This document shows, piece after piece, positions 22,861 to 37,089 of a stretch of 64,000 nt of DNA (its first letter is position 1; each line of letters opens with the position of its first letter). The position numbers were made by a program, and so were the translations under genes. A model generated the notes under the pieces. The model saw only the letters and a list, made by a program, of their open reading frames with translations. It did no database searches and was not told the DNA's origin. Origin of the DNA: Denitrovibrio sp. GTDB lineage: Bacteria > Chrysiogenota > Deferribacteres > Deferribacterales > Geovibrionaceae. The DNA lies in NCBI GenBank assembly GCA_002869145.1, contig PKTM01000011.1:1-64000 (forward strand), in the 5' to 3' direction.

Positions 22861-24834
22861 ATGTATATCTTCAATCTTTTTAAGAGTTCAAGATACTTCT
22901 TTACTCTTATGGCGTGCATGTTTGCAGTTTTTATCATTATTATCCTTCTGGTCGGGCGCAGTATTTACGACAATCAGAGAGAAAAACTCTACTCTTCAAA
23001 AACAAATGAGCTCTCCATAACAAAAACAAATTTTGAGCATAGACTCGAGGATATTGAGCTGGAAATGCGCCGGCTTGTTAATGTTATGAAACAGATGAAC
23101 CTTTTCGAAAATCCCAACGAAGTTGACATAGAATCTTTTGCAAGTGATTTTCTTTTTGACCATAACTACTTGAGTGTAATCATCGATAACAAAGACGTAC
23201 CTGACTTAAAAATGGACAGCCAGACTTTTCAGCCGCAATTTAAAGACTTCATTCAAGCAAAACCAGAGAATATACTGAAGAGCATAGATGCTAAAAATGC
23301 TGTCATGAACAAGATAACCATCAACAGTGAACTCAACGTGGTATTCTTGGTTAAAAGCATACACAGCGCCACAGGTATAAAAGACAAAAATATTATTTTC
23401 TTCTTTTCACCGGAGCTTTTGCTGAAATATCTACCGAAAAACTACGCTTTTCTTATGAGTGACGGGAACGTTAAATGGGCTCCTGACGGCAGCGATTTCC
23501 CGCAGAACCTGCCAACTGAAACATACAATCAGGACTCTGGGCAAACTAGATTAAACGATACTCACACTGTCTTTTACACTTCACTAAGCGGCAAAGGCAA
23601 CCCTTCATATTTAGCTTCTATAGTAGACACTTCCGAGATTAAACAAGCGCTGCTTTACTATACTTTAGTTACAGTAGTCTTATTCTCTCTGTTTTTTGCA
23701 CTGATCATCTTTATTATTTACATTCGAAATCAGCAGATAACTCAGCTAATTAACACTCAAAAGGCGACAGTAGTCTGCCTGGCTAATCTGGCCGAGTTCA
23801 AAGACAACGAAACCGCTGACCATTTGGAACGCACCAGACACTATGGCAATCTGCTTTCTAATTACCTCCGCAAAGACCCTAAATATAAACAAAAGATCAA
23901 CAAGGAATATATAGACAACATAGGCTTTGCCTCTGTTTTGCACGACATAGGAAAGGTCGGAGTGCCTGATTCCATACTTAAAAAACCCGGTAAACTTACA
24001 GCAGAGGAATTTGATATAATAAAACAACACACTGTTTTCGCTAAAAAGATATTAAGCGAGCTTGTGGATAAACATAAAATAAATGATATCTTCTTCACTC
24101 TCAGCTACAACATAGCCACATATCACCACGAAAAATGGGATGGTACAGGCTATCCGGAAGGTCTGAAAGGTGAAGAAATACCTTTGGAGGCTAGAATATT
24201 CGGTCTTTGTGATGTTTATGATGCACTACGCTCAGAAAGAGTATATAAAGCTCCTTTTTCCCATGAAAAATCAGTAGCCATCATAAATAGCGGTGCAGGA
24301 ACGCATTTTGACTCCGACATAGTAGACGCTTTTAACGCCTGTGCAGAGCAGTTCCGACACATCCACGACACCTATATTTTATTTTATAATGGAATATCCT
24401 ACTCGTCATTTGGCAACAACAGACGCGAACTGAAGGTTGAATGGAACAGCAGCCTATCCGTGGGTATTGATTCCATAGACGAACAGCACAAAATTCTTCT
24501 TGGAAAAATTAATTTTCTTATCAAATCCATACTCGATGGAAAAGGCGATGAAAACGTACTTTCAATACTTAACTTTCTCAGAGACTATTCAGAAAACCAC
24601 TTTAGAGCAGAAGAAAAGATAATGCTTGAACTTAATGATCCTTATCTGAAAGAACACGTTCAGGAACACGATATTTTCAGACAGAATTTCAAAAAAATAA
24701 TAGATCAGGTCACCCAGGAAGGTGTTCAGGAAGGAACCTTATTTGTAATAGAGAGAGACCTCATATCTTGGCTGCTTGATCACATAGCAAATATGGACAC
24801 TCAAATAAGTAAAAGTTCGGCTCAGTACTCGTAA
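22861..24834 (+). CDS. Membrane HD-GYP phosphodiesterase fused to bacteriohemerythrin
   Basis: 657 residues, probably a cyclic-di-GMP phosphodiesterase. Order: TM1 (about 13-33), a periplasmic sensor region (about 35-260), TM2 (about 265-288), HD-GYP (about 300-495, with HDIGKVGVPD at 361 and HHEKWDGTGYP at 422), and a C-terminal hemerythrin (about 525-648). The hemerythrin has all seven diiron ligand positions (His543, His580, Glu584, His599, His603, His641, Asp646). Hemerythrin domains bind O2 or NO, so the enzyme likely couples oxygen to c-di-GMP breakdown and motility. It is convergent with the chemotaxis operon and shares its terminator. Confidence 0.9.
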   Translation: MYIFNLFKSSRYFFTLMACMFAVFIIIILLVGRSIYDNQREKLYSSKTNELSITKTNFEHRLEDIELEMRRLVNVMKQMNLFENPNEVDIESFASDFLFDHNYLSVIIDNKDVPDLKMDSQTFQPQFKDFIQAKPENILKSIDAKNAVMNKITINSELNVVFLVKSIHSATGIKDKNIIFFFSPELLLKYLPKNYAFLMSDGNVKWAPDGSDFPQNLPTETYNQDSGQTRLNDTHTVFYTSLSGKGNPSYLASIVDTSEIKQALLYYTLVTVVLFSLFFALIIFIIYIRNQQITQLINTQKATVVCLANLAEFKDNETADHLERTRHYGNLLSNYLRKDPKYKQKINKEYIDNIGFASVLHDIGKVGVPDSILKKPGKLTAEEFDIIKQHTVFAKKILSELVDKHKINDIFFTLSYNIATYHHEKWDGTGYPEGLKGEEIPLEARIFGLCDVYDALRSERVYKAPFSHEKSVAIINSGAGTHFDSDIVDAFNACAEQFRHIHDTYILFYNGISYSSFGNNRRELKVEWNSSLSVGIDSIDEQHKILLGKINFLIKSILDGKGDENVLSILNFLRDYSENHFRAEEKIMLELNDPYLKEHVQEHDIFRQNFKKIIDQVTQEGVQEGTLFVIERDLISWLLDHIANMDTQISKSSAQYS

Positions 24835-24845
24835 ATACTGAGCCG
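24818..24845. terminator. Bidirectional terminator between the HD-GYP gene and cheW
   Basis: A perfect 10-bp stem CGGCTCAGTA/TACTGAGCCG (24818-24827 with 24836-24845) spanning the HD-GYP stop codon and followed by CTCATTTTT on the plus strand. It ends 8 bases before the convergent cheW stop, so it can serve both transcripts. Confidence 0.75.
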
Positions 24846-24852
24846 CTCATTT

Positions 24853-25368
24853 TTATTCCGCTTTTCCAGCAGGTGCAATGGCTGCCACAGCCTCCATCTC
24901 TTTTTGACTGAAAACTGCTTCCAGTTTAAGGATTATCACAAATCCCTCATCGGTCTTAGCCATACCATGTATAAACTCTGTGTTGAGCTGTGTGCCTATT
25001 CTGGGAGCTGCTTCTATATCTGCAGCACTGAAAGTCACTACCTCTCTCACAGAATCAACAAGTGCGCCTATACTGGCTCTATCTCCGTCAAGCTCAGTGT
25101 CTATTACCACCACACAGGTGTTTACAGTTCTCTCGCCCTTTTTCAGCCCAAACTTTACCCGCATATCAACCACAGGAAGCACATGCCCCCTTATGTTTAT
25201 AACACCTGACATAAAATCAGGCATCTTCGGGATCTTTGTCTGACCGTCATACTCCAGAACTTCCTTAACAGAGTTTATATCTACACCGTAAACCTCTCCG
25301 GCAAGTTCAAAAGTAAGTACCTGAAGGCTAGCCGAAGGAACACTGCTTTTTTCAATGTTATCACTCAT
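24853..25368 (-). CDS. cheW: CheW coupling protein of the carbonic-anhydrase chemoreceptor operon
   Basis: A CheW-domain protein of 171 residues that links chemoreceptors to CheA. Seen: VLTFELAGEVYGVDINSVKEVLEY, the signature MSGVINIRGHVLPVVDMR, a VVVIDTELDGDRASIGALVDSVREVV strand pair, and a GMAKTDEGFVIILK core end. I chose the ATG at 25366-25368 over the GTG at 25374 because AGGTG lies 6-8 bases upstream. It starts 11 bases after the carbonic anhydrase-MCP fusion ends, so it is co-expressed with that receptor and is presumably its dedicated coupler. No CheA is in the window. Confidence 0.93.
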   Translation of the reverse strand: MSDNIEKSSVPSASLQVLTFELAGEVYGVDINSVKEVLEYDGQTKIPKMPDFMSGVINIRGHVLPVVDMRVKFGLKKGERTVNTCVVVIDTELDGDRASIGALVDSVREVVTFSAADIEAAPRIGTQLNTEFIHGMAKTDEGFVIILKLEAVFSQKEMEAVAAIAPAGKAE

Positions 25369-25379
25369 ATTCACACCTA

Positions 25380-28016
25380 TTACCCTAACCTGAAAAATGA
25401 TATTGTGCTCTGGAGCAGATTAGACTGCCCAGAAAGCTCTTCTGCTGTTGCAGCCATCTCTTCAGACGCGCCTGCATTCTTCTGTATAACCTGATCAAGC
25501 TGCTGTATCGCAGTATTAATCTGATCTGCGCCTGTTCTCATTTCACTGTTCGATGCCGACATCTCCTGAACCAGCTCTGCTGTTTTTTGGATTTCCGGCA
25601 ATATCTGATCGAGCAGTCCGCCGGCTTTTTCAGCTATCTCTACACTGTTCGAGGAGAGTTCGCTGATCTCTGCTGCTGCTTCCTGTGAGCGCTCTGCAAG
25701 CTTGCGCACTTCAGATGCCACCACGGCAAATCCTTTTCCATGCTCACCGGCTCTGGCTGCCTCAATAGCAGCGTTAAGTGCTAACAGGTTAGTCTGTCTG
25801 GCGATCTCTTCTATAATGGATATCTTTTCTGCAATATCCTTCATAGCACCCACTGTCTGACCAACTGCTTCACCGCTGGATTTTGCATCAGCTGATACTT
25901 TAATAGCTATTTTTTCTGTCTGGAGGGCGTTGTCTGCATTCTGGTTTATGTTAGAGGTCATCTCTTCCATAGAGGAAGACGCCTCTTCTGCGCTGGCTGC
26001 CTGCTCTGTTGCTCCGGCTGACATGTCCTGTGCTGCACTGCTTAGTTCATTAGACCCCATAGACACATTATCAGATGCTTGTGTTACGTCTGATATTACC
26101 TGAGTAATCTTCTCGGTCATGTTTGCCATAGCCATAACAACACTGTCGCTTGCAGCACCTTTTTTGTTAATGTTGAACCCAAGATTGCCTTCGGAAAGCT
26201 CTGTTGCTATCTGAGCAATATATATCGGCTCTCCGCCCAGCCTCTTTATTATAGATGCTATAACCATACCACTGAAAAAGAGACCAATAAAAGTGGCAAC
26301 AAGCATAAATATGCTCAGCAGTTTGAATGCGTTCTTTTCGTCATGTTCCGCATTGATAAGTGACTGCTGAGTAAATTCCTCTATCTCTTCCATCAAACCA
26401 ACTAGCTTTTCATCAAGCTCACTAATTGCTTCTTCAAGCTCTTCTGTCTTCTCAACAGCTTCCCGTGACTCTCCTGCTGCGGCTAGATGAAAAATCTCTG
26501 TGACGTGTTCAGTAATCTCTGTCTGCTCCTCGCCTATATTCTCAAGATTTCTTTCTATCTTTTCAAACTCTTCTATAATCTCTGGGTTTTCTGAGCTTTC
26601 TATAGCTTTTTTTGTAAAGATTATTGCCTGTTTAAGTATCATGTCAAAGTTTTTATCAAGCTCGTAAAAGTGTATCTCGCTCTCTACAAAATCATCCATA
26701 TGCCCCATAGATGACTGGAGTATAGCAGTTATAAAAGCTATCTCCGTTTCAGACATATGCACAGCTAGCTCTGAGGCTGCCTTGGATAGAGGCATATCCT
26801 TCTCAGCTACATTTACAAGTTCTGTTCCTATATTCCCCATCTTTACTATGCCTACTGCTGAACTTGCCACTACAAATATTATAAGCACACCGGTAAGCAG
26901 GTACACTTTAGCCTTTAAACTCATATTATGAATGAATCCAGGTGTCAGCTGTTTATTGACCATAAACACACCTATTAAAGCACCAATGACAAATACTGCT
27001 GCAAGTGATATCCATAATAATATTTTCGACTTCGCTTTCTCTGGTACAGCACTTAGAGATTCAAGTAATTTTTTATCACTAGCACTCAGATTTGCTTTTA
27101 TGGTATCAGGATTAATTTTCTTAACATTTGCCGAAGCAGAGTGCCCTGAGCTTTTTTCGCCATGAGATGGCTGTGCGCCGTGCCCACTCGCTTCTTGTTT
27201 AATAGTGGCTACAGCAGCACCTTTTGAAAGTGATGCGCCGGCTCCATCAGTACTCACATCCACCTTCAGCACCATGCGTGCATTAACAGGATTAATAGGC
27301 CGTTCGTTATGCGAAATTATTTTAGAAGTAAATTTGTCTACTGCAGCTTTCGACACACTCACAGCGTTCTGCATAACAAACCAGTTCACACCCTCGGTGC
27401 AGGGTGGAGTAGTGAGTGAACCATTATAGTTGTAAAATGATCTGTTAGCAGGCAAAACATCTGCGCCGTTGTAAACGATATTCTTGTGCACTTCCATAGT
27501 GCCAGTTTTTGCAGGAAGGTTGTTAAATATCTTTTCCAGAACAGGGTTTGCAGCACCAGCATTTATCATAACACCTACAACAGCCAGTTCGCCATCGCTG
27601 CTCTTATGAACAAAGTGTGCTTCCATATCGGAATATTTGCCGTTTATAGTGTGCTCACTTGGACTGTGCAGGTGAAACTGCAAAAGGTTAAACCGCTTGC
27701 CTTTCGCAACTATATAACTCCCTTCTCCATAGTTCATCTGGAGGGCATGACCGTTATTAACGATTCCAAGCTCTGTAAGACCATAATAAAATTGAATTTT
27801 TTCAAGACTGCCTTTTACAGCCTTTGACGTTTCTATGTTTATTGGTGACTGAGACTGACCTGTGGAGCAGACTTGATAATCATCTGAAAGTGTTCCCCAG
27901 TTTGCTGGCCCAGTTCTTCCGTCATAAGTCCACTGTACGCCAGAAGAGGCATAAGCATAAGCACTGCTCAGCATAAAAACTGATATCAATAGTACCTTAA
28001 GTAAATTTTTCATCAT
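25380..28016 (-). CDS. Alpha-carbonic anhydrase fused to a methyl-accepting chemotaxis receptor
   Basis: 878 residues. A signal peptide (about 1-23) is followed by a complete alpha-carbonic anhydrase (about 25-250): proton-shuttle His90 (NNGH), zinc ligands His115, His117 and His134, gatekeepers Glu121 and Thr202, and the disulfide pair Cys50/Cys206. A His/Ala/Ser-rich linker (251-325) leads to TM1 (about 331-353), a short cytoplasmic loop, TM2 (about 370-391), an acidic four-helix-bundle-like periplasmic region (392-562), TM3 (about 565-588) and HAMP. The MCP signalling hairpin follows, with its tip at 735-777 ([20 protein letters not shown]). The helix count places both the anhydrase and the bundle in the periplasm, as a working receptor needs. 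I infer a CO2/bicarbonate or pH chemoreceptor. Two ATGs follow GGAG; the first is used. It sits between a free anhydrase and cheW. Confidence 0.93.
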
Positions 28017-28023
28017 TTGCTCC

Positions 28024-28773
28024 TTAAAGCGGATTGCTTAAAACATTTCTAGCATTAACTGGCTGTGTTGGTCGTTCGTTATGCTTTATTATGTTGGTTG
28101 TAAAAGCCTCGACTTGCTTTTTTGAAACACTCACAGGATTTTGTAAAACAAACCAGTGAACACCCTCTGAACATGGAGGTGTAGTTAGCGAACCGTCAAA
28201 ATGGTAATAAGATTGATTTGTTGGCAAAAAGTCCATCACACTGAACTTGATGTTAAGTACTCTAGTGACGCCTGACTTGTCAGGCATAGCTGACCAGAAC
28301 TGCTTAAGAAACTGATTCTCAGCCCTCCCTTTCAAAAGCACTGATACCACTGCAAGCTCACCTTTTGCACTTTTATGCACCAGATGCGCCTCCATATCGA
28401 AATAATTTGAATTTACAGTGTTCTCGCTTGGAGAGTGAAAATGGAACTGCAAAAGTTCAAACTTTTGGCCTTTTATAGTAATGTAGCTCCCTCTGTCATA
28501 ATTAGCCTGAAGTGTATGCCCGTTATTAACGAGTGTTACGCCCGAAGTTTTGTAGCTGAAAGAGATTGGCTCCATAGACACCTTGATAACATCTCCGGTA
28601 TCAATATTAATAGGGGATTGGGAAACACCTGATTTGCATACATGAAAATCCTCTGACAAATCGCCCCAGTTAGCAGGCCCTTCATGTCCTTCGTAACCCC
28701 AGTGAACATTCTCTGATGCGAAACAAGCTGAATAAATCATCACCAGAATAAAAATTAATAATACATTTTTCAT
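28024..28773 (-). CDS. Secreted alpha-carbonic anhydrase
   Basis: Hydrates CO2 to bicarbonate in the periplasm. 249 residues with a signal peptide (about 1-19). Shuttle His86 (NNGH), zinc ligands His111, His113 and His130, Glu117 and Thr197 (SLTTPP), and disulfide cysteines 46 and 201 are all present, so it should be active. The residue after Glu117 is Asn where most alpha enzymes, and the neighbouring fusion, have His. It is clearly paralogous to the receptor head encoded 7 bases downstream, pointing to duplication followed by fusion. The ATG follows CGGAG. First gene of the operon with the MCP fusion and cheW. Confidence 0.95.
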
Positions 28774-30456: not shown

Positions 30457-30705
30457 AGTTAACTCCTGATCAATATTATTAACATTAATATGAACTTTAA
30501 CTAAAATTTGTCAACAGTAAATACACTCGTTTTAAAACAAAACTGAAATCTGTTTAAATCAAGCTTTTTTTACCTATTTGACCCGGAATTGCATAAAAAG
30601 CCATATCGAAGTGATGCCTTATTATGTTTTTTATAAAATTTATTGGAAAGAGATCCTGTCTTATTGTAAACTTTAATAATTAAATCTAATTATGTGTGGT
30701 GTACT

Positions 30706-33700
30706 ATGAAAAAATTTGCTTATTTTCTTTTGATACTTCTTTTAACCTTCCTTTATTCGTGCGGAAGCTCAAGCAGTGATAAAACATTATCCAGTGATCA
30801 GTCAACATCAGAAGATGTGCAGACAGATACTGTCGTTATACAAGGCGTTGCAGCGTCAGGTCTTCCTGTTATCGGTAAAGCCTACATTAAAGATGGTGAA
30901 GGCAATGAGTATTCAGCTGATACAGACAGATTTGGCAAATACTATTTCGACCCTATACATTTCAGACCTCCATATATTGTAAAAGCGGAAGGCTTGACAG
31001 GGGATAGATTTGTAACTCTCTACTCTGTCAGTGATGGTAAAGATAAGATAGTAAACACCAACCCTTATACCAACCTTGCAGCGTCTCTGGTTGTTGGTGG
31101 AGAGAATTTGGACGATGTATATAAATCACCCGAAAACCATAAAGATAAAGTATCAAAAGAAAAAATAGATGAGTCTGTGAACAAAGTTAAAGAGATGCTG
31201 AAGCCTGTTCTTGATGAAATGAAAATAGGAGATTTCGATCCTTTTAATAAAGAGTATGCCGCAGATGGGAAAGACATTGACGGAATTCTGGACAATATAG
31301 ATATAAAAGTAGACGGTTCAAATTTCCGAGTAGTAGACAGCAGCACAGGTACAATGCTTATAGATTCGGATATTGGTGATATTGACTCACAAAAAATAGA
31401 TGATGAAAAAGCTAAAGATATTGCAGAATATGTTGAAAAAGGCTCTGATCAGCTTAGTGAGATAAATACCTTTCTGAAGGATTTATATTTCGACAGAAGC
31501 CGCGAGGATTTTTCATCTTATATAAGCGACAATTTTCAATGGTACAATGGTGTCAGCCGCACAGATATTCTCTCAACAGGTTTCTCATATTTCGCAGGCG
31601 TAACCACTATTAACAATATCTTTGTTACCAAAAGAATCAGCCTTGAAAGCGTAGTGGTCTCTCTTGCCGAAAAAATGAAAGACGGCAACATACATCAGCA
31701 ATACTATAAACTTACCAAAATTGACGGCAAGTGGTTTCTGGATGGAAACGGCAAAAAATTTGCAAGCACAATCAACCCTGTAACTATGCTTACAGATGCT
31801 GATGGCGAGGAGACCTATACCTACGGTCTTGATTTAAGTTTCGCCGATCCTGCTGATTTAGGTGTAAGCATGGTTGTGGTGGAAGGAGCAGGACTTCCCG
31901 ACGGTGGACTGAAATTCTTTAAAAACAGCTCTGGCAAATACATCGCTCTTTTGCCTGATTCTGTTAATACTTTCGGCGGAAACTCCATCTATATGGAGGA
32001 TTTTGACGCAGAAATGTTAGATGCAGATATCTTTATGGAAGATTATGACGGAGAAATGCGTGATACAGAAAATTATATGGAAGACTATGACTGGGAGATG
32101 CTTGACACCTCAAAAACTCTGTTAAGTGCTGATTCGACACAGATAGACATTGAAACAGTCTTTGAAGACTTTGACGCTGAGCTTAATGTTCCAGACATAT
32201 ACCTGCTGGATTACGACGCCGAACTTTACGGATTTGATATATTTATGCTCGACTACGAAGAAGAGCTGCAGAACAAGCAATATTTTCTCGATTATGATGC
32301 TGAACTTCTCGGTTCTGATGTAAGCAGATTCGGAGATGGAACCATTGTAATGGAAGACTTCGATGCAGAATTACTCGGAGCAGATATCAGTAAATACGGA
32401 TTTTCAGAATATACTGTCACAGGCTATAACGGCTTTGACAGTGAGACACTGCTCCCTACAGGAGCTCCCGTACAGGAACAGACCATCATGCTGAAGACGG
32501 GCTTTCAGAGCACTGCTGAACTTTCTAAAAATAAATCAGAGTTGTTCCTTGCTGAAGCAAATACTCCTGACTATGCTTTATCAGCAGGCAGCCTTACAGC
32601 TAGTATTGACTTTTCAAACTTCGAGGCTCCCTATGCAGCAATTGCAGAATTTGTTTGCTCAGATGCAGATCACTCCACATCACAGGCGCAGGAAATCACG
32701 ACAACTTCCCCTGTATTCGAGTTTGATATTGATAAAACATTCGATACTGCAAGCCTAAGAAACTGCTATATAGATTTCAGATATCAGCTCAGTTCAGGAA
32801 TGATATACACCACACAGAGGGCTTTCTCTCATAACAGCGACAATGCACGCACTCTCGCCAGAGCGGGACTAGAAAATATAATACAGCAGCTCGCAGAAAA
32901 CGGCATAGTTAACGGCACAGAGATACTGTCTAGTTCTATAGACCTTCCGGAACTACAGCCTGCTGACGAAAGAATTACTATTAGATATAACAGCAGTAAT
33001 TCAGATTATCTTCTCCCAGAAGGAACTGTTCACAGACCAGACTATTTTGAAGAAGATGAGCATGCATTACTTCATGTAATATCAGCGGTCGATTATGGCG
33101 GAGCATTTCCGGCAAGAGCTTCCAGCAGTGTTTCCCTTATAATAATGGCGCTAGGGGCTACTGAATATGAAAGATCTTACTATGATGATACAAATTTAGA
33201 TTTTGATGCAATTAGAACAAGCAAAAACACATCCGAAGATGAAATACGATACGATCTTAATCTCTATACTGAGGGCGAACTAGGCACAGATATAAGCTGG
33301 GAAAGCAGTAACGCAGATGTCATATCAACAGACGGTACTGTAAACCGCCCTGCACATAAAACAGATGATGAAGCTGTTACGCTCACTGCATCTATCCAAT
33401 ATCCAGGCTTCAGAATTCATACACTCTTCGAGCTCACTGTAAAGGCTGAAAGCGGAGATACTGACGGAGACGGCCAGCCTGATGACGAAGATCTTGACGA
33501 TGACGGAGACGGCTATAATGACGCTATAGACGCATTCCCTCTTATCGCAGGCGAATGGGACGATACTGACGAGGACGGATTAGGCAACAATACAGATTTG
33601 GACGACGATGACGACGGTATTTTAGATATATATGATGCTGCTCCTTTGACAGCTTCCAGATTTAATAGACAGCCCCTTAAAACTGGACAGGCTGCAATAT

Positions 33701-36700
33701 TCACAGCAAAAGATGACGGTTATTATAAACTTGGTGCTGATTCTGCATTCAGCAGAGACAGCGCAACGGGTTTGGTTACTGATAGTTCAACCGAACTTAT
33801 ATGGCAGGATACTGCTGCTGTTGCAGCTGATACTTATGGCTGGGAAGAAGCAGTGACTTACTGCGAAGAGCTTGAAATTGAAGGCTTAACAGCATGGAGA
33901 CTGCCGACTATAGAAGAACTGAAAACAATTCTGCAACCTGGTTTTTACAGAGGTAAAGACGAGACAATCTTTACACAAGGATCTCTTAAAAGATTTTGGT
34001 CACAAGATGAGTTTGTTTCTGACAGCTCAAGTGCATGGTTCTCAGGTACATCTGGGTACATAAATCATACAGATAAAACAGAAGCTATTAATGTAAGGTG
34101 TGTTACCGGAGCTGATTTTGTAGAAGAACGTGAGTTTTATCGTAATGACGATACTTCAATAGTTATGGACAACTCCTCCGGTCTCATGTGGCAGGACAAT
34201 GCAGCTGTCACTGAAAGCCTTTACTCATGGGAGGAAGCTGTCGAACATTGTGAAAACCTTGAGTTTGGAGGATATAAAGATTGGCATCTGCCCAATTATA
34301 ATCAACTGAACACTTTGGTGAATTATTCTGCTGTGTCACCTGCTATATTCAATGTATTCCAAAATATGATTACTGCAGCATTCTGGAATTCTACAACATC
34401 TCCTACCGACCCTAATGCTATTATGACTACACAATTCAGCAGCGGGGCTAACTGGATATTCGGCAAAGATCTGCATACATATGCAAGGTGTGTCAGAACA
34501 ATTTTTGTGGAAGAGGAGCAGCCGGCTTTTATCAAACAAACTGGTCAAACAGCAATTTACAAGGATAAAGATGACGGTTACTACCAGTCTGGAACACCGA
34601 ACAGCTATACCAGAGACGATGAGAAAGAAATAGTCACAGACAATGTTACCGGACTGGAGTGGCAGGACAATGATATCGACTCTCCAGGTGCAGTTACATG
34701 GACCGGTGCTTTAGTAAGATGCGAAAATCTGGAGCTTGGCGGTTACAGCGACTGGAGACTTCCATCCAGAGAAGAAGTTATTTCCATTTTTGACTATGGT
34801 ATACACGGCTATGCAGACTCAGCTTTCCAGAACGGGTCAGGTTCAAGTAATTTGTGGACTTCCAGTACCTTTGTAAGCAACTCAGATTTCGCATGGTATA
34901 CAAGAATATACCTTGGCTTGCTTGACTATGACGATAAGTCTGAGCAGCATGATGTGAGATGTGTCAGAGGAGGCAGTCTGCCTGTCCGCAATTTTGTGCG
35001 CGAAGAGTATGTAGAAGCAGTGACAGACAGTTCTGCAAAAACTATGTGGCAGGACGATCAATCAGTTATAGCAAACACATATACCTGGCCTGATGCTATT
35101 AATCACTGCGAAAACCTTACAGAAGGCGGATATAACGACTGGAGACTACCAAATATTCTTGAGCTTTTAACTATAGCTGATCCATGGGCAGAAAATCCTT
35201 CGTTAGTACCGGAATTTGAAAATTTTAACTCAGATTATTTCTGGTCATCTTCCACTTCTGTATCAGGCGCGAGTTCAGCTTATGCAATTCACAACTTTTA
35301 CAGCACAGTCATCTACAGAGATGTGAGTGAATCGTACTATGTAAGGTGTATCAGAGACGTCAGTTACGATGCTATCCCAGAGGTTGCTATTAAACAGACA
35401 GGGCAGAATGCATCCTATGCTGTGCTTGATGACGGGTACTACCTGAATGGGGAAGAGCCTGATTACACCCGCAGCGATAACGCTATTGTTACAGACAGCG
35501 TAACAGGACTTGACTGGCAGGACACAATAGATGTTCAGGAAGATACTTACACATGGAGCGAAGCTCTCAATAATTGTGAAGATATGACTCTGGGAGGATA
35601 TCAGGACTGGAGACTGCCTTCATATCATGAGCTTATGTCTATCGTCAAATACGGAAACACCAGAAATATAGATGACACTTTCGAATATCTTTTTAGTTCA
35701 GGATATTGGACTGCTACATCAACTACAGATACTCCTTACAGCTCTGCCAGATATGTTGGTTTCTCAAACGGTTATAGTGATATTTATGACAAAGACCTGA
35801 CAATGTCTGCCAGATGTGTACGTGGAGAGAAACTGCCTGAGCATGAATTCTTCCGTGATGATTATTAAGAGATTGTAACTGACAATACCACAATGCTTAT
35901 GTGGCAGGATAACATTGCTATTGATAGCCAGTACACATGGGAAGATGCTATTACAGTTTGCGAGTCTCTTACACACGGCGGATATGATGACTGGCGCATG
36001 CCGAACATTAATGAACTGAGAACCATAGTAGACATAGGCAGCACATATAACTACATAGACAGTGCTTTCTACTATTTTCCTTATAGCAGCTCCACATGGA
36101 GCTCAACCAGCTTTACCAGTGCCGACGGTGACAGAGCTTATGTAATATCCAGTCTTAGCAGAGATGTAAGATTTACTGATAAATCCTTTTTAAACTCTGT
36201 CAGATGTGTAAGAGATATGGGCGGTTATGTGGATGAAGTAGAAGAACTGCCAGTAAAGATGACTATACAGTTCGACTCATACGCAGATTATGATGATGGG
36301 TATTATCGAACAGGTGAAATAACACACTATGAACGTAATATTGCCCAGGAAATTGTCATAGACAGAGTTACCGGACTTACCTGGCAGGATAGTGAAGTAC
36401 CTGTAGGCGGCACATGGATGGAAGCAATCAACACATGTGAAGATTTGTCTATGGCTGGTTATGATGACTGGCGCTTGCCTACTTACAGAGAACTCATGAC
36501 AATACTGGAATATCAAACTAGGGATAACGGTCTATATATATCCGATATTTTTGAAAGTTCAGCATCCAGGATGTGGAGCTCAAACTCACATGGCAGCAAC
36601 AGCGAGCTTGCATGGACTGTTAGTGGCCAATCCGCAAGCTCATTTTATATCGACAAGACTACAAACTATTCAATCAGGTGTGTCAGAGGCGAAAGGCTTC

Positions 36701-37089
36701 CTGAACCTGATCTTGTAAGATATGATGCTGATGAAAAAGTAGTGGATGACGCTACAGGACTTGTTTGGCAGGATAACAACGATGCCGCATCGCTAACGCT
36801 AACATGGGCAGAAGCACTGCAGTACTGCGAAAACCTTGAAGTAAGCGGAAGCACCCAGTGGCGTCTGCCAAATATTAATGAGCTTCAAACCATTATAGAC
36901 ATAAGCAGAAACAGTAATAAGTTTATGGCGGAATTTGCTAATACTGACAGCGGAGACTACTGGAGTTCGACTACTTACCTGGCAGATACAGATAGCGCAA
37001 AAACTATATGGTTCTATGCCGGAATGCTTAGGGATAAAAACAAGGCTGAAGCGCACAACGTCAGATGTGTTCATAATAAGAGCGATTAG
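30706..37089 (+). CDS. Giant modular lipoprotein with Lcl_C (DUF1566) repeats and in-frame TAA
   Basis: About 2,127 codons. The lipobox LLTFLYSC puts the protein on an envelope surface through Lgt. Order: a carboxypeptidase-regulatory-like beta domain (residues about 35-110), a helical region, eight DYDAEL-type repeats (DNA 31990-32390), cadherin/Ig-like beta segments, a thrombospondin-type-3-like calcium-binding stretch (33460-33650, DTDGDGQPDDEDLD type), then eight Lcl_C/DUF1566 domains (33660-37080). Each Lcl_C copy has TGLxWQD, W-x-x-A-x-x-x-CENL, GYxDWRLPxxxEL and RCVR. Odd copies open with DDGYY and even copies with LPExxFxR, so the unit is a doublet repeated four times. TAA at 35866-35868 interrupts copy six, after which the frame continues to 37089. 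ATG 30706 is preferred over GTG 30694. Probably an adhesin or ligand-binding surface protein. Confidence 0.8.

Follow-up and report, generated by a model that had tools for sequence, protein, structure and literature searches.

A carbonic anhydrase-headed chemoreceptor of Denitrovibrio as a candidate enzyme-coupled sensor of CO2, bicarbonate, or pH

CO2 and bicarbonate sensing by swimming bacteria is poorly understood, and few receptors are known. A 64,000-nucleotide stretch of Denitrovibrio sp. (GenBank assembly GCA_002869145.1, contig PKTM01000011.1, positions 1 to 64,000; hereafter referred to as the window) contains genes for a free secreted alpha-carbonic anhydrase (CA), a methyl-accepting chemotaxis protein (MCP) whose N-terminus is a second alpha-CA, and a CheW coupling protein, raising the question of what a chemoreceptor joined to an enzyme senses and what the enzyme contributes. 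An earlier note, made from the sequence alone, had described a periplasmic CA coupled to MCP and CheW and predicted sensing of CO2, bicarbonate, or pH. This core reading is supported by fusions in other phyla, CA-MCP operons, the che gene context, catalytic conservation, and substitution by a beta-CA, and the fusion is probably a chemoreceptor that uses an enzyme to report on the CO2/bicarbonate/proton system. The three minus-strand genes and the gaps of 7 and 11 bases described earlier agree with the coordinates of the open reading frames (ORFs): 7 bp separate the free CA from the fusion, and the fusion is separated from CheW by 11 bp with an ATG start or 5 bp with a GTG start of the latter (Table 1).

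Architecture of the fusion and its enzyme domains

The two CA domains of the operon match PF00194 with bit scores of 147.8 and 160 against a cut-off of 27, and the fusion additionally matches the MCPsignal family PF00015 with 114.6 bits and contains the conserved tip [31 protein letters not shown]. Hydropathy places transmembrane helices (TMs) at about residues 332-350, 373-391, and 569-587 in addition to the signal peptide, and because of this signal peptide and the three TMs, the CA head and the helical bundle are both predicted to be periplasmic, as the earlier note had placed them. The AlphaFold model, a check that the note had proposed for the linker and the topology, shows the CA head with good confidence, disorder in the linker (residues 257-327), a bundle mostly above 90 in predicted confidence (pLDDT), and an extended MCP hairpin with values of about 66-80; by hydropathy and the model, the TM-flanked periplasmic ligand-binding domain (LBD) corresponds to TM2-bundle-TM3. 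Thus, of the domain order claimed previously, the signal peptide, CA, linker, two successive TMs, bundle, third TM, and MCP hairpin are borne out by hydropathy, AlphaFold, and Pfam, whereas the HAMP domain is not, since no Pfam HAMP match is obtained in the fusion even at E<=1. Pfam HAMP is likewise not found in four alpha-CA-MCP fusions of Desulfobulbales described below; a HAMP domain between TM and hairpin is usual in MCPs but not universal.

The catalytic residues indicate that the receptor head is apparently an intact enzyme. In the alignment, the fused head retains the zinc ligands His115, His117, and His134, the shuttle His90, the gate residues Glu121 and Thr202, and the cysteine pair C50/C206, and the free CA likewise keeps the shuttle His, the zinc His, the Glu/Thr gates, and the Cys pair, in agreement with what had been noticed in both anhydrases. 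The catalytic residues are complete in all 14 MCP-linked CA domains examined, and on these sequence grounds a degenerate, non-catalytic head is rejected. The closest structural relatives are secreted bacterial enzymes: the head matches the Thermovibrio ammonificans alpha-CA 4coq with a Foldseek E of 3.4e-22 and a TM-score of 0.93, and the alpha-CAs of T. ammonificans (4c3t/4coq), a hydrothermal vent (6eki), and Persephonella (6im0) share 43-46% identity, TM-scores of 0.91-0.93, and the catalytic residues with it. These proteins are free enzymes, whereas the CA domain here forms the N-terminus of a transmembrane receptor. Furthermore, the linkers of six alpha-CA fusions are enriched in histidine (mean 8.1% vs 2.0-2.9% elsewhere in those proteins), the window protein having the smallest excess (4.0%, against 6.1-11.3% in the five related fusions); such linkers could possibly help to supply zinc or to buffer protons close to the enzyme.

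The free CA is 55% identical to the fused head, and a weak lipobox-like motif (YSAC) in its signal peptide may possibly make it a lipoprotein. In a tree, the two domains are each other's closest relatives (branch support 98/96), consistent with a tandem duplication.

Table 1. Features of the operon and of the fusion chemoreceptor, given as positions in the window
Feature	Positions	Strand	Basis
Free secreted alpha-CA, 249 aa	28024..28773	-	Pfam PF00194, 1.1e-46
Alpha-CA-MCP fusion chemoreceptor, 878 aa	25380..28016	-	PF00194, 5.8e-43, and PF00015, 5.6e-33; single ORF
Fusion: signal peptide, residues 1-24	27945..28016	-	Hydropathy, sequence
Fusion: alpha-CA head, residues 28-251	27264..27935	-	Alignment, Foldseek, AlphaFold pLDDT mostly 85-98
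Fusion: disordered linker with short Gly/Ser/His stretch, residues 253-327	27036..27260	-	pLDDT 26-45
Fusion: TM1, residues about 332-352, part of the CA-linker half	26961..27023	-	Hydropathy; AlphaFold helix 326-352
Fusion: TM2, periplasmic four-helix bundle, and TM3, residues 367-592, likely sensing module	26241..26918	-	AlphaFold helices 367-436, 440-474, 478-513, 517-592
Fusion: HAMP-like segment, residues 588-640, unconfirmed	26097..26255	-	HAMP-like by eye; low pLDDT
Fusion: MCP signalling hairpin, residues 622-877	25386..26153	-	PF00015
CheW coupling protein	24853..25374 (GTG start) or 24853..25368 (ATG start)	-	PF01584, 3e-35
Terminator-like hairpin 3' of CheW	24818..24845	-	12-bp stem; consensus match alone

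Carbonic anhydrase-linked receptors in other bacteria

The CA-MCP architecture is not unique to this genome, and its dismissal as a single-genome curiosity is excluded, because Desulfobulbales and Verrucomicrobiota also carry alpha-CA-MCP fusions. A CA-pattern scan covered 84,980 species genomes, from which the best 80 loci were kept, and a separate search covered 258 Desulfobulbales genomes; sequence searches beyond the window's phylum were partial in coverage. Among the best 80 loci, three are CA-MCP fusions, two from Desulfobulbaceae and one from a Verrucomicrobiota metagenome-assembled genome (MAG). At four more loci an MCP is the immediate same-strand neighbour of the CA (4/136 neighbouring genes at the 71 of the best 80 loci where the gene caller recovered the CA), and at these 71 loci MCPs account for 4/118 genes at distance two and 0/290 at distances of three to six genes. 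In Desulfobulbales, 61 of the 258 genomes have an alpha-CA and four encode fusions of about 900 aa; none of these four has an alpha-CA other than the fused one. Three of these four fusions head a che operon with CheA, CheW, CheR, and CheB or a CheB-like protein; the operon at locus L132 was confirmed by Pfam, CheD included.

The same partners also occur as separate genes. In a gammaproteobacterium, a double-CA gene lies 68 bp upstream of an MCP with a homologous bundle, followed by CheY-like, STAS, and CheA genes. In the taxonomic order of this bacterium, a second genome has a double-CA gene 28 bp upstream of such an MCP, and a third has a single CA gene 16 bp upstream. In a Nitrospirota MAG, an MCP with a signal peptide, a His-containing linker, and a TM lacks the CA head, and a CA gene is located 74 bp downstream.

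The TM2-bundle-TM3 module of the window receptor has homologues (E 1e-10 to 2e-27) in all four Desulfobulbales fusions and in the three MCPs next to CA genes in Gammaproteobacteria, but none of the eight other MCPs of the genome that were included in this comparison resembles it significantly. Its TarH match (0.0035) falls below the Pfam cut-off, and the homologues at loci L029, L131, and L132 pass a cut-off (4HB_MCP_1/TarH). With the bundle alone, Foldseek returns weak matches (best E 0.003), including the LBDs of PcaY_PP, Tar, and Vc1313 at E 0.005-0.03. Escherichia coli Tar, Pseudomonas putida PcaY_PP, and Vc1313 likewise possess a periplasmic four-helix bundle between two TMs and an MCP hairpin, although these structural matches are weak, and the window receptor differs from them in the enzyme head, the disordered linker, and an extra TM before the bundle.

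Furthermore, the enzyme on this receptor type can be of another fold. A profile of the bundles, searched in Desulfobulbales, reached a 933-aa protein (L213:460-3261) that begins with a beta-CA (PF00484, Pro_CA, 4.9e-35) and continues with a His-containing linker, TMs, the bundle, HAMP (8.6e-14), and MCPsignal (5.1e-30). Alpha- and beta-CAs have unrelated folds and catalyse one reaction; therefore, the recurring feature is CA chemistry and not one fold. The recurrence in unrelated bacteria, once with an unrelated CA, suggests a purpose-built sensing of CO2, bicarbonate, or pH.

Several observations weigh against this reading. In the Verrucomicrobiota and Nitrospirota members the receptor body is longer and of a different kind, the bodies at L027 and L076 being of another type that is HBM-like, by a weak match, in L076; hence, at least two kinds of receptor body have acquired a CA partner. 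The bundle family also occurs in Vibrio and Roseibium plasmid MCPs with neither a CA head nor an annotated CA neighbour, and in eight Desulfobulbales genomes besides the four with alpha-CA fusions, one of the eight having the beta-CA head. The bundle is therefore not CA-specific by sequence, and its restriction to CA-linked receptors is ruled out. At the genome level, bundle and alpha-CA are not enriched for co-occurrence in Desulfobulbales (alpha-CA in 4/12 bundle genomes), and the fusion itself is thus the sole informative link in this order.

Within the window's phylum, PF00194 is found in 1 of 51 genomes, namely this one, in two copies that both lie in the operon. In two congeners, the flanking HD-GYP/hemerythrin and enoyl-CoA hydratase genes adjoin each other, 18 and 32 bp apart, and no CA, MCP, or CheW lies between them. 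These empty sites mark the 4.4 kb as an accessory cassette, either gained here or lost in both congeners. Regarding its origin, two CA trees suggest separate alpha-CA fusions in the window and in Desulfobulbales; the search for the first tree missed a better one uniting the fused heads, and approximately unbiased (AU) tests on a careful tree do not reject a single fusion origin (p 0.43 and 0.21), so that two independent fusions are not established.

Other observations concern CA in different settings. Gammaproteobacterial surface-type proteins (L150:7175-9772, L151:3685-5613, and L152:3575-5674) carry, by eye, PKD-like repeats N-terminal to an alpha-CA, and a Chloroflexota protein (L057:4726-6864) combines an alpha-CA with an N-terminal domain that is NHL/beta-propeller-like by eye and a C-terminal TM anchor. 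Alpha-CA genes are present on many Enterobacteriaceae and Aeromonas plasmids (L006, L007, matches H23-H38); no CA-MCP fusion turned up on plasmids when the whole receptor or the beta-CA receptor served as the query. Elsewhere in the window (30694-37089), two long ORFs with many GLxWQDN...WRLPxxxEL repeats are separated by a stop and 24 bp and perhaps represent a single broken surface protein.

Proposed mechanism and competing explanations

The genome offers plausible signalling partners. The signalling domain of the fusion is approximately 75% identical to those of three MCPs of the same genome (contigs C28, C19, and C22), each followed by CheW, and the operon CheW is approximately 50% identical to the CheWs behind the MCPs on C28 and C22. 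The MCP on C19 (76% identical signalling domain) comes after a CheA, and the rest of the CheA operon, with CheR, CheD, and CheB, seems to lie on C6. A CheW gene is seemingly split across the ends of these two contigs (L217 and L218), indicating that a che operon of the order CheA-MCP-CheW-CheR-CheD-CheB is interrupted by the assembly. This operon resembles the one adjoining a Desulfobulbales fusion (CheB 63% and CheA 45% identical), and the CheA on C19 is the likely partner of the window receptor. As to the other two MCPs, an in-frame stop splits the sensory part of the one on C28 (L193:304-3114), a possible pseudogene, and the reading frame on C22 (L196:1-1779) is in two pieces owing to a frameshift or an assembly error.

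In the proposed mechanism, the head and the free CA would bring periplasmic CO2 into equilibrium with HCO3- and H+ close to the four-helix bundle, which would read the product, either HCO3- or local pH. The signal would then pass through TM3 and the hairpin to CheW and a CheA of the matching chemosensory class, represented by the C19/C6 che operon. The enzyme would be needed because uncatalysed hydration of CO2 takes tens of seconds (about 0.03-0.04 per second), far slower than chemotactic sampling at approximately 1 s; CA would thus allow a bundle that reads bicarbonate or pH to keep pace with CO2. That one receptor type can carry either CA fold suggests that selection has acted on the reaction as such.

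Among the alternatives, an output other than flagella (pili, c-di-GMP, or development) in response to CO2 or HCO3- is compatible with this mechanism up to CheA. Genes for STAS and MCP-like proteins without an assigned role are present in the associated che operons, but these also contain CheR, CheD, and CheB adaptation genes as in motility systems, which is not decisive, and we regard a non-flagellar output as rather unlikely. It is less likely still that the CA is a tethered housekeeping enzyme for periplasmic CO2/pH balance, merely co-localised or co-expressed with a receptor that senses something unrelated. Such an arrangement would accord with the bundles that occur without CA, with the many ligands that MCP bundles bind, and with the far greater abundance of free alpha-CAs (57 of the 61 Desulfobulbales genomes with alpha-CA have no fusion); it accounts poorly for the repeated joining of CA and MCP, in which the gene borders vary and two CA folds take part, for the four genomes in which the receptor head is the only alpha-CA, and for the che-operon context.

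The head itself might also be the ligand sensor: its zinc site would take up bicarbonate or an anion that inhibits the enzyme (such as HS- or nitrite), and the resulting change in the head would be passed on mechanically. Its wholly conserved active site and the established anion binding of alpha-CA active sites would permit this, but direct mechanical coupling is unlikely because the head is set apart from the bundle by 75 disordered linker residues and one more TM; moreover, several systems encode the CA separately and an unrelated beta-CA fold can substitute for it. We consider direct sensing by the head improbable, and of the options raised in the earlier note, the one in which catalysis produces the signal is favoured by the linker and the extra TM. 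Finally, an assembly artefact or chance read-through, conceivable for a draft genome of 29 contigs and named earlier as a ground for abandoning the reading, is scarcely credible: the reading frame is uninterrupted over 878 codons, its signal peptide and TMs come in the right order, five other independent assemblies show the matching architecture, and two congeners have clean empty sites.

Relation to known systems and significance

In the literature searched (open-access papers on CA-MCP receptors and CO2/bicarbonate chemotaxis), no description of a CA chemoreceptor was found. The arginine/bicarbonate chemoreceptor TlpA of Helicobacter pylori is likewise an MCP with reported bicarbonate chemotaxis activity and a periplasmic sensing domain, dCache_1 (PMC8406319). 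TlpA has no enzyme domain, whereas the window receptor has a four-helix bundle joined to CA. A functional parallel to the enzyme-coupled receptor proposed here is found in animals, where in carbonation taste and GC-D neurons CA makes a product that a separate sensor reads. The proposed role of CA in converting CO2 to a product for a separate sensor is similar; the animal sensors are not homologous, and here enzyme and sensor are one bacterial polypeptide.

On a wider scale, these receptors might constitute a distinct catalytic class, a proposal that we make tentatively and hold just short of probable: an intact alpha- or beta-CA, in cis or in trans with an MCP, would turn a slowly readable gas into a fast ion signal, and the class would have been assembled repeatedly in several phyla to yield dedicated bacterial CO2 taxis receptors. 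The receptor would add an example of a metabolic enzyme put to use at the input side of a chemoreceptor, and it may provide a part for a CO2 biosensor. A receptor carrying its own CA would furnish a concrete mechanism for CO2/bicarbonate sensing in bacteria, one that is open to a clean genetic test.

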